Of a stretch of 41,208 nucleotides of DNA, positions 16,994 through 19,601 are shown piece by piece (the stretch's first letter is position 1; every line of letters starts with the position of its first letter). The notes under the pieces are model-generated. The model was not told the DNA's origin, searched no databases, and saw only the letters and a program-made list of their open reading frames with translations. Location: contig JAIXOF010000080.1 in NCBI GenBank assembly GCA_027486935.1, positions 1 through 41,208 of the forward strand, given 5' to 3'. The position numbers were made by a program, and so were the translations under genes. The DNA comes from Cyanobium sp. C1_MAG_00004. Its GTDB lineage: Bacteria > Cyanobacteriota > Cyanobacteriia > PCC-6307 > Cyanobiaceae.

Positions 16994-18067
16994 TCAGGCG
17001 GCCACAGCGGTCTTGGGATCCAGAGCACCTTTGGCGTACAGACCGGCGTAGTAATTGATGTCGCGCTGCTTGATCTTGCTGGCGTTGCCGGCACACCAGA
17101 ACTGCTGGTAACGATCGAGGCAGACCTGCTTCATGTAGGCGCGGGCCGGCTTGTTGAAGTGGCGGGGGTCGAAGTTGGCGGGGTCCTTGGCGGCGGCTTC
17201 ACGCACAGCAGCGGTGAAGGCCAGGCGGTTGTCGGTGTCGATGTTGACCTTGCGCACGCCGTTGCGGATGCCTTCCTGGATTTCTTCGACCGGCACGCCG
17301 TAGGTCTCGGGGATGGCGCCGCCGAACTTGTTGATCATGTCGAGCCACTCCTGGGGCACCGAGGAGGAGCCGTGCATCACCAGGTGGGTGTTGGGGATGG
17401 CCCTGTGGATTTCGGCGATCCGGCTGATCGCCAGCACTTCACCGGTGGGCTTGCGGGTGAACTTGTAGGCGCCGTGGCTGGTGCCGATGGCGATCGCCAG
17501 GGCATCGACTTTGGTCTTGGCCACGAAGTCGGCCGCCTCGGCGGGATCGGTCAGCAGTTGGCTGTGGTCCAGCTTGCCTTCGAAGCCATGGCCGTCCTCG
17601 GCTTCGCCCATGCCGGTTTCGAGCGAGCCCAGGCAGCCCAGTTCGCCCTCAACGCTCACGCCGATGGCGTGGGCCACGTCCACCACTTCCTTGGTGACGG
17701 CCACGTTGTACTCGTAGCTGGCAGGAGTCTTGGCGTCGTCCATCAGCGAGCCATCCATCATCACCGAGGTGAAGCCGTTGGCGGCAGCACCGAAGCAGGT
17801 GGCGGGGCTGTTGCCGTGGTCCTGGTGCATCACCACCGGGATGTCGGGATAGGTCTCGACAGCGGCCAGGATCAGGTGGCGCAGGAAGTTCTCGCCGGCG
17901 TACTGGCGGGCCCCCCGGGAGGCCTGCAGGATCACCGGGGAGTCGGTCTCATAGGCCGCCTCCATGATCGACTGCACCTGCTCCAGGTTGTTCACGTTGA
18001 ACGCAGGAATGCCGTAGCCATTCTCGGCGGCATGGTCCAGCAGCAGGCGAAGCGGAACGAGCGCCAT
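16994..18067 (-). CDS. fba: fructose-bisphosphate aldolase, class II
   Basis: This 357-residue class II aldolase has the zinc-binding segment [13 protein letters not shown] (81-85 HQDHG). The catalytic and metal region includes [10 protein letters not shown], and GTSHGAYKF and [13 protein letters not shown] follow. It carries out the aldol step of the Calvin cycle and glycolysis, and it also acts on sedoheptulose-1,7-bisphosphate in the Calvin-type family. ATG 18067 has GAGGA upstream, and a TAAACT -10-like element lies at 18137-18142. A strong terminator follows. It is a separate transcription unit from the riboswitch gene, because that gene's terminator lies between them. Confidence 0.96.
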
Positions 18068-18190
18068 GGGGAATCCTCGTGAAGGGGCGAAGGGGGTGCA
18101 GACGGGCAGGCGGGCTTGAAACCCGGTCTGCGGGCGAGTTTACGGGATGCCCACCACAGCACCCGCGCCGGCTGGCCGCAGATCCCCAGC

Positions 18191-18223
18191 AAAAAGCCCC
18201 CGACCGGAACTCCGGTCGGGGGC
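18191..18223 (-). terminator. strong intrinsic terminator after the 37-residue gene
   Basis: On the minus strand a perfect 12-bp stem (GCCCCCGACCGG at 18196-18207 pairing with 18212-18223, 4-base loop) is followed by TTTTT (18195-18191). It begins 30 bp after the small-protein stop. It closes a short, self-contained transcript of about 280 nt. Confidence 0.93.
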
Positions 18224-18252
18224 CTGGCAAAGCCCGGATGCGGGCCTTGAAA

Positions 18253-18366
18253 TCAGTCGATCAGCTGCTGCCGGCGCAGCGACTGAACGGAGTATCCGTT
18301 CTGTTTGGCGGCGCGGCGGGCCTCTGCGGCCTGACGGGCCAGCTGCCTGGCTGTGGTGATGGACAT
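18253..18366 (-). CDS. 37-residue basic protein under glutamine-riboswitch control
   Basis: The frame encodes 37 residues: MSITTARQLARQAAEARR, then AAKQNGYSVQSLRRQQLID. It has six Arg and one Lys against one Asp and one Glu, and the first 22 residues look like an amphipathic helix. ATG 18366 is preceded by GGAGG at good spacing. Upstream are a glutamine-riboswitch-like RNA and an NtcA box, and downstream is a strong terminator, so it is an independent unit. I do not recognise the protein. By genomic context it belongs with the small proteins controlled by glnA/Downstream-peptide RNAs, such as glutamine synthetase inactivating factors. Sequence similarity to known IF7/IF17 is weak, so the function is inferred only. 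Confidence 0.85.
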   Translation of the reverse strand: MSITTARQLARQAAEARRAAKQNGYSVQSLRRQQLID

Positions 18367-18407
18367 GGTGGTGCCTCCAGAAATGATCCGGCGCAGGCCG
18401 GGTGGAT

Positions 18408-18472
18408 GGCGCGTTGCTTCGGGGGCGTCCCTACTTCCACCGCCGGGCGTGAAATCCCGGGGCCAACGTTCC
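18408..18472 (-). promoter_or_regulatory. glutamine riboswitch (glnA / Downstream-peptide class)
   Basis: Read on the minus strand, the leader contains the core GGAAGTAGG (18438-18430) and the 3' element CCGAAGCAACGCGCC. P1 forms by CGTTG (18468-18464) pairing with CAACG (18416-18412). P2 is CCGGG/CCCGG, closed by GCC with GGT, and P3 is GGG/CCC just after the core. From memory the family consensus has CGTTC/GAACG in P1. Here both strands have changed together, a compensatory pair. The RNA ends 41 bases before the start codon of the 37-residue gene. In cyanobacteria this RNA class binds glutamine and, in the known gif case, switches the gene on. Confidence 0.85.
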
Positions 18473-18478
18473 TGAACT

Positions 18479-18492
18479 GTAGTGATTGCTAC
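18479..18492. promoter_or_regulatory. NtcA binding site (GTA-N8-TAC)
   Basis: GTAGTGATTGCTAC (plus strand) is a perfect GTA-N8-TAC palindrome, the NtcA consensus. On the minus strand it lies six bases upstream of the riboswitch, overlaps a TACAG(T) -10-like hexamer (18481-18476), and lies just downstream of TTGACC (18500-18495). This overlap with the core promoter fits repression, as known for gif genes under nitrogen shortage, rather than the activator position at about -41.5. It also overlaps the stop of the upstream oxidoreductase. Confidence 0.75.
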
Positions 18493-19601
18493 GGGGTCAA
18501 GGTGTTCGTTGTGATACCTGCGGCGGTCGTCTGTTGTACGGATTGCCGGGCCTGGTCGCAGCAGCGCTGGCTGCTCAGGGCTTCGAGCAGGCCGGGAACC
18601 ATCGGCCTGCCCTCTCGAATCGCCTGGGCCCACCAACCGTGCAGGCGTTCGACCGGGGCGATGCGACCGTCACCCCAGGTGCGCCTGAACGCCAGCTGGG
18701 GGTCGGGTGCGACAGGGCGCAGGGCTTCGCCGTTGCGGGCCATCCACAGGCCGAACCCGTGCACGTAATCGCTCTGGTTGTCCGAGCCGAGCACCAGGGT
18801 GGCGTCGCTGCCGTACAGCTCGAGCCAGAAGCCACGGCCGGCCCGGGTGACGCTGGCCAGGTTCATCTGGGCTGGCACGGGCCGGCTGGCAGGCCCCTGC
18901 AGTTGCAGCTGTACCAGGGCGATGTCCTCGGCATCGACCGGGCTCATCGATCCGCTGCCTGGGTTGGGCCTGCTGGTGATCGCTGTGCTCAGCCGGGCCG
19001 ATAGATCGGCGGTGGGGCCGATGAACCAATGCAGCAGATCAAACGCGTGGGTGCCCAGGGCCCCCAGCACCCCACCGCCCTCGGCGGCACTGGAGTACCA
19101 GCTCCAGGGGCGTGACGCGTCGGCACGGCTGGCCATCAGCCAGTCGAGCTTCACCAGCCACGGATCCCCCAAGGCGCCCTGTTGCAGCAAGGCGGCCAGC
19201 TGCTGAAACAGCGGGACGGCCCTGTACTCGAAGTCCACGGCAACCGTCAGGCCCCTGCCCAGGGCCAACCGCTGCAGGTCCTCAACCTGCCGGGCGTCGA
19301 GGCCCACCGGTTTTTCGAGCATCAGTTGCTTGCCGGCCTCGAGGGCGGCCGCTGCCAGGCCGTACCGGGGCCCCGGCGGAGTGGCGATCACGATGGCGTC
19401 GATGCCGGGGTCGTCCAGCAGTGCCTCGAACGCGGTCTCACCCCTGAGGCCATGGCTGCGGCAGGCGGTCTCAAGCCGTTCGGCTCGGGGATGCCACAGG
19501 GCCACCGGTTCCCAGTCGGGCGAGGCGCGTAGAGCCTCGAGGTGGACCTTCTCGCCAAAGCCGAGGCCGGCCACGGCCACGCGCAGAGGGGCTGTTGTCA
19601 T
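18489..19601 (-). CDS. Gfo/Idh/MocA-family NAD(P)-dependent oxidoreductase
   Basis: This 370-residue protein has an N-terminal Rossmann fold (VAVAGLGFGEKVHLEAL) and the family's EKP motif (MLEKPVGLD). GTHAFDLLHWFIG supplies the usual catalytic His-containing segment. The C-terminal alpha/beta domain is of normal length. The family oxidises or reduces sugars and cyclitols; the substrate cannot be told. The ATG at 19601 overlaps the stop of the secreted-protein gene by four bases, so it is the last gene of the accD run. Its final codons contain the promoter and NtcA box of the next small gene. Confidence 0.9.
   Translation of the reverse strand: MTTAPLRVAVAGLGFGEKVHLEALRASPDWEPVALWHPRAERLETACRSHGLRGETAFEALLDDPGIDAIVIATPPGPRYGLAAAALEAGKQLMLEKPVGLDARQVEDLQRLALGRGLTVAVDFEYRAVPLFQQLAALLQQGALGDPWLVKLDWLMASRADASRPWSWYSSAAEGGGVLGALGTHAFDLLHWFIGPTADLSARLSTAITSRPNPGSGSMSPVDAEDIALVQLQLQGPASRPVPAQMNLASVTRAGRGFWLELYGSDATLVLGSDNQSDYVHGFGLWMARNGEALRPVAPDPQLAFRRTWGDGRIAPVERLHGWWAQAIREGRPMVPGLLEALSSQRCCDQARQSVQQTTAAGITTNTLTP

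Follow-up and report, generated by a model that had tools for sequence, protein, structure and literature searches.

When a gene of only 37 codons stands behind an RNA that resembles a glutamine riboswitch, which class does the RNA belong to, what else controls the gene, and what might so small a protein do? We address these questions for a locus in the window, a 41,208-nucleotide stretch (G000:C204) of a 2.98-Mb picocyanobacterial genome. An earlier note on this DNA had named an aptamer core, a 3' element, a five-base P1, a Shine-Dalgarno (SD) sequence and a tiny gene, and we found all of these elements on the minus strand (Table 1). Our reading, which we hold with a probability of roughly 0.72, is that the locus is the control unit of a glutamine-switched, NtcA-repressed microprotein. 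This reading draws on the homology and structure of the aptamer, a conserved operator at a conserved spacing, a peptide under selection and the absence of the glutamine synthetase inactivating factors IF7 and IF17 from the 34 family genomes searched.

Table 1. The control unit and its two neighbors, in the order of transcription (window positions)
Feature	Sequence	Positions	Strand	Basis
Gfo/Idh-type oxidoreductase ORF, upstream neighbor		18489-19601	-	name inferred from sequence
Second, weaker NtcA-like box, not a perfect GTA-N8-TAC, centred near -41.5 relative to the inferred start	GTATCACAACGAAC	18504-18517	-	sequence
NtcA-type operator, perfect GTA-N8-TAC, centre about -16.5	GTAGCAATCACTAC	18479-18492	-	conservation across loci
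-10 box (inferred)	TACAGT	18476-18481	-	TACNNT after the operator in nearly all loci
Type-1 glutamine riboswitch aptamer		18408-18470	-	RF01739; fold of variable hairpins; covariation in P1 pair 5 and P2
P1 5' strand	CGTTG	18468-18464	-	sequence
Aptamer core	GGAAGTAGG	18438-18430	-	sequence
P1 3' strand	CAACG	18416-18412	-	sequence
3' element	CCGAAGCAACGCGCC	ends at 18408	-	sequence
Putative anti-SD strand, overlapping the aptamer 3' end	GCGCCATCC	18404-18412	-	predicted pairing, inferred
SD sequence	GGAGG	18374-18378	-	sequence; also in homologous loci
ORF of the 37-aa basic protein, plus stop	MSITTARQLARQAAEARRAAKQNGYSVQSLRRQQLID	18253-18366	-	homologues, selection
Intrinsic-terminator-like hairpin and T run, closing a one-gene transcript		18196-18226	-	sequence
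Presumed class II fructose-bisphosphate aldolase, downstream neighbor with its own promoter, outside the switch unit		16994-18067	-	syntenic marker

A conserved 37-residue protein

A translated search recovered the peptide from 38 of 400 family genomes in six genera, and in two of these (G004 and G099) it is degraded. Named carriers include Cyanobium spp. CH-040, T1B-Tous, FACHB-13342 and FGCU52 as well as Synechococcus sp. GFB01. The ORF is 37 codons long in nearly all loci over a range of 65-92% identity (one could start two codons earlier), T4, A6, Q8, Q12, A13, R17, R18, L30, R31, L35 and I36 are invariant or nearly so, and the median dN/dS of 0.33 over 617 pairs indicates purifying selection. 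The net charge of the peptide is mostly +3 to +5. The earlier note had not recognized the tiny gene and had thought it probably undescribed, and our results agree: the gene is conserved, and we found no Pfam, NCBIfam or PHROGs match for its product. The RNA adds a member to a class already known; the 37-aa protein family appears undescribed.

The peptide had no match to DUF4278 (PF14105) in the same Pfam search in which the protein encoded at L001, elsewhere in this genome, matched that domain at 5e-14. AlphaFold2 predicts a single helix over residues 3-32 (pLDDT 75), and since the model is one plain helix, it is too plain for fold searching. A PDB sequence search returned only designed helical proteins with E above 0.09, which we regard as meaningless, and a phage origin was rejected because relatives were absent from the viral contigs and phage records searched.

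The aldolase, which we take to be such from its sequence and from prior knowledge, is the same neighbor of the unit in divergent genera, and a G+C-rich hairpin with a T run comparable to that of the window follows most homologous ORFs. Rfam matches such as P15 and SNORA77 at about 18190-18300 fall on this terminator hairpin and were dismissed as chance.

Identity and structure of the aptamer

With the threshold lifted, a covariance-model search matched RF01739 over the full length of the model (34.0 bits, E 1.1e-5). Since the gathering score of RF01739 is 35 bits and the aptamer in the window falls one bit short of it, a default Rfam scan at the gathering score reported no match for the window. 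RF01739 scored above 35 bits in 9 of the 17 homologous peptide loci scored, with a best score of 42.0, and the whole genome yielded only two RF01739 matches at any E up to 10. On the other hand, a covariance-model search with RF01704, the model of the Downstream-peptide (Glutamine-II) class, gave no match at this site. We also found the features that define type 1, namely a three-way junction of P1, P2 and P3 with the GGAAGUAGG core and the CCGAAGxAACGC 3' element. The earlier note had described the locus as a glnA / Downstream-peptide design and had proposed a check against both Rfam models; the glnA half of that description is supported by the RF01739 score, below gathering as it is, and by comparative structure, while the Downstream-peptide half fell away. 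Judged from its sequence, the RNA is a type-1 (glnA) glutamine riboswitch aptamer with a predicted response to its ligand. Because the protein is short for routine annotation and the aptamer lies under the Rfam cut-off, both halves of the unit are easily overlooked. A 2018 NAR study reportedly mapped glutamine riboswitches and may already list some of these aptamers.

Folding of the leader as a single sequence was no better than that of shuffled sequences, probably because G+C-rich sequence offers many rival folds, and we therefore used comparative tests. P1 is kept in all 22 aligned aptamers, 19 of which have G-C and 3 of which have C-G as pair five, and compensatory changes are found in P2 of the same alignment too; since the loci are phylogenetically related, these counts and the others across loci are not independent trials. 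The compensatory change in P1 had previously been read as evidence of selection on structure. We confirm that the swap is real, but it is a signature of the whole lineage, shared with a locus in another family (L017), and better structural evidence therefore comes from the P2, P3 and P4 hairpins, which vary independently. The sequences and lengths of P2 and P3 are unlike between the 33 loci with an intact aptamer, yet these hairpins fold, with mean z scores against shuffles of -2.6 for P2, -2.1 for P3 and -2.9 for the inner P4 hairpin.

An NtcA-type operator at the core promoter

Absent from the earlier note is a perfect GTA-N8-TAC site of the NtcA type, which lies 10-12 nt before aptamer P1 in all 33 intact loci. 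All 37 peptide loci, including four in which the aptamer is wholly or partly lost, keep the GTA...TAC of this operator unchanged, and so do 9 of the 10 loci of a sister genus, g9; the eight inner bases vary, and the distance from the operator to CGTTG is fixed at 10-12 nt. The site overlaps the core promoter and the NtcA protein is encoded in the window's genome, as would be expected of an NtcA-repressed promoter, at which binding and repression are predicted. Since the TAC of the operator forms the first half of the -10 box, its position is suited to repression. Transcription would be expected to start at the aptamer's 5' edge, near 18470-18469, and most g9 loci have a TTGNCA-like -35 element at standard spacing. 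The NtcA sites through which gifA and gifB of Synechocystis are repressed lie at -30.5 and -7.5 (PMC6316151), which makes repression by NtcA the natural reading of the operator in the window.

The second box (GTATC-N6-AAC) lies 25 bp upstream of the main operator, and about 22 of the 37 peptide loci have GTATC at this distance; a regulatory role is conceivable. Two NtcA sites are likewise described at Anabaena gifA (PMC6316151) and at Synechocystis pirA (PMC8092223). The ORF of the upstream oxidoreductase extends across the GTATC box and ends within the NtcA operator, whose GTAGC supplies the TAG stop (window 18489-18517), so that in this genome the operator overlaps a coding sequence.

Sister branch and natural losses

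Promoter and aptamer are arranged in the same way in ten genomes of genus g9, where P2 is very short and the peptide is 39 aa long (MSIITVHYLQRHREEAARRAKELAYRRRVDLHE...). Since the profiles of the 37-aa and 39-aa peptides align without a gap over residues 1-26 (probability 89.6%, E 1.9e-6), they probably belong to a single family whose C-termini have diverged. A search of the 400 family genomes for the type-1 core pattern found, besides the peptide loci and those of g9, scattered matches that resemble chance hits; the real-looking aptamers were those before the 37-aa or g9 peptides, with one of the scattered matches inspected.

Three loci (L046, L060 and L064) have lost the 3' half of the aptamer and keep both the NtcA operator and an intact peptide, and in L068 the aptamer is lost and the peptide is decaying, with the operator kept. 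These losses fall in two genera. In G004, which belongs to the window's genus, all that is left of the peptide upstream of the aldolase is a broken remnant (L125). Another fourteen relatives carry the aldolase with no unit upstream of it, and within genus g6 the gene is present in about 18 of 42 genomes. The four loci with whole or partial loss of the aptamer suggest that some lineages can do without glutamine sensing. Together, the pattern of losses indicates that the gene is patchy, that the peptide can outlive its aptamer and that, of the two layers of control, NtcA appears the more essential.

A predicted switch with two inputs

In the predicted folds of most of the 33 loci, an anti-SD strand (GCGCC-A-UCC) downstream of P1 pairs with the SD (GGAGGC) round a variable hairpin. 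When P1 was enforced in ViennaRNA, release of the SD was not seen (P = 0.97), and since this thermodynamic modelling produced no switch, the relief of SD masking by glutamine is a step that we infer. ON-switch behavior has been reported for both types of glutamine riboswitch (PMC6316151; type 2 also PMC6698751).

We propose that when nitrogen is scarce, NtcA with 2-oxoglutarate would occupy the -10 region and block transcription, as the position of the operator suggests, and that when nitrogen is plentiful, NtcA would be off and the transcript would begin at the 5' edge of the aptamer. In the absence of glutamine, the 3' tail of the aptamer would then pair with the SD and hold translation down, while binding of glutamine would hold the tail in the aptamer and turn translation on, by analogy to gifB as an ON switch. 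The product, an Arg-rich and probably single-helix protein of 37 residues, would accumulate only when both nitrogen and glutamine are high. Its likeliest job would be to bind and slow a nitrogen-assimilation protein, for which glutamine synthetase is the leading single candidate, and the peptide could act as a functional stand-in for IF7/IF17, which the family lacks.

Function of the peptide and alternative explanations

In 34 family genomes, profiles of IF7/IF17 produced no convincing match (best E 0.012); the same profiles matched strongly in 4 of 4 outgroups. From the regulatory wiring of the unit in this IF-less group, we predict that the peptide is probably a brake on nitrogen assimilation. 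The wiring of gifA and gifB combines NtcA repression at the core promoter with, for gifB, a glutamine ON switch, and Arg residues are essential in IF7 (PMC6316151); R17, R18 and R31 are invariant in the 37-aa peptide. Comparison of the peptide with the IF C-terminal domain gave an hhalign probability of 0.1%, and with no sequence homology to IF7, it is wiring and charge that speak for a shared target. We regard glutamine synthetase as a tentative target, at odds well below even. It is a similarly speculative possibility that freshwater and brackish picocyanobacteria replaced a lost IF7/IF17 with an unrelated helical microprotein of 37-39 residues while keeping the unit of NtcA and glutamine riboswitch.

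The same wiring may instead serve another target, with the peptide binding PII, PipX, NtcA or another enzyme, as PirA binds PII, and we consider these other targets, taken together, a serious contender at somewhat less than even odds. The peptide has no homology to IF7, and PirA is described as likewise small, positively charged, NtcA-repressed and absent from marine picocyanobacteria (PMC8092223). Nothing specific argues against this alternative, but since the type-1 switch is most firmly linked to a glutamine synthetase inhibitor (gifB), glutamine synthetase is slightly favored as the target.

Less plausibly, the aptamer could be a relic that no longer senses glutamine, so that only control by NtcA matters. 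Its sub-threshold RF01739 score, the whole or partial loss of the aptamer in four relatives and the decayed remnant in G004 would all fit, but the window's aptamer has kept its core and P1 nucleotides, which are also conserved across the 33 loci, and the hairpins drift under structural constraint, which makes this explanation improbable. Harder still to credit is a transcript that acts mainly as a small RNA or leader, with the ORF being incidental or a regulatory uORF: although the transcript is short, structured and terminated, and cyanobacteria have many nitrogen-stress RNAs (PMC6316151), the codons are under purifying selection (dN/dS 0.33), the ORF length is fixed in nearly all loci and the SD is kept, three genomes retain the peptide after partial loss of the aptamer, and a terminator-like hairpin separates the ORF from the next gene in most loci. 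It is very improbable that the peptide is truly homologous to IF7/IF17 and has merely shrunk, since the shared regulatory inputs, the basic helical character and a loose likeness around the RQQ and AR-L residues are set against the hhalign probability of 0.1%, on which we rejected IF7 homology, no Pfam match and a peptide that lacks the invariant W, QGKV, P and F of the IF C-terminus.

If the reading as a glutamine-switched, NtcA-repressed microprotein is true, the peptide may be a missing nitrogen-assimilation brake in a group without the brakes known from other cyanobacteria. Reviews describe the regulation of glutamine synthetase in marine picocyanobacteria as unclear and the IFs and PirA as missing there (PMC6316151, PMC8092223). 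The locus comes from the freshwater and brackish branch of the family that includes these marine forms, and it offers a short conserved candidate with 2-oxoglutarate as an input through NtcA and glutamine as an input through RNA, and at 37 residues, the peptide can be synthesized and assayed directly.

Other glutamine switches

A third glutamine switch in the window's genome is a Glutamine-II riboswitch with 52 bits (L115, G000:C28:58527-58587), which precedes a 59-aa ORF (MNTLELIRSRILKTKHLAEAQMVMAKSYGG...) matching the phage family phrog_545 (E 3.8e-8) and has an NtcA-type site, GTAGCAACTGCTAC, centred near -30.5 of its inferred start. Glutamine switches before DUF4278 proteins were found at L001 (G000:C209:556-627), L018, L020, L021, L023 and L025-L028, where the NtcA site is replaced by a shared palindrome (about TGTTCAC-N-ATGAACA) roughly 12 nt before a -10-like box. 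The window's genome has just three copies of the exact form TGTTCA-N3-TGAACA (control 0), and two of these share a contig. The 2018 study, as summarized in PMC6316151, associates glutamine riboswitches in available genomes mainly with DUF4278 genes. In a cyanobacterium of another family, three RF01739 aptamers lie about 300 bp apart (G047:C2:1066802-1067466), which suggests tandem or triplicated glutamine-switched small genes.

Comparison with known systems

The gifB (IF17) leader of Synechocystis PCC 6803 is like the present locus in its type-1 aptamer, its NtcA site at the core promoter, its small basic product and its logic of nitrogen excess (PMC6316151). Unlike gifB, the locus encodes a product of 37 aa without a DUF4278 or IF domain, and its operator is centred at about -16.5, as opposed to -30.5 and -7.5 at gifA and gifB. 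Compared with type-1 loci of other families, P1 in the window closes with a G-C instead of a C-G pair, and its putative SD helix pairs GCGCC-A-UCC with GGAGGC, where those loci have GCGCCUC/GAGGCG.

The Downstream-peptide or Glutamine-II class (RF01704) also has a glutamine aptamer before a short picocyanobacterial ORF and shares the core, and Weinberg et al. in 2010 remarked that Downstream-peptide RNAs are followed by short unknown ORFs and glnA RNAs by nitrogen genes (PMC2864571). However, RF01704 has its genuine match elsewhere in this genome, at L115, before an unrelated ORF, and none at the window's site. PMM1846 of Prochlorococcus MED4 is likewise a small protein linked to a riboswitch and to NtcA, and has been proposed to regulate glutamine synthetase (PMC6316151), but it is a DUF4278 protein, which the window peptide is not, and DUF4278 is encoded in the window's genome by another gene, under a switch of its own (L001). 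Lastly, the PII-interacting regulator PirA (Ssr0692) is small, basic and NtcA-repressed like the window peptide, whereas it is 51 aa long and the parts of PMC8092223 that describe it mention no glutamine aptamer of its own; the likeness between the two is one of description.
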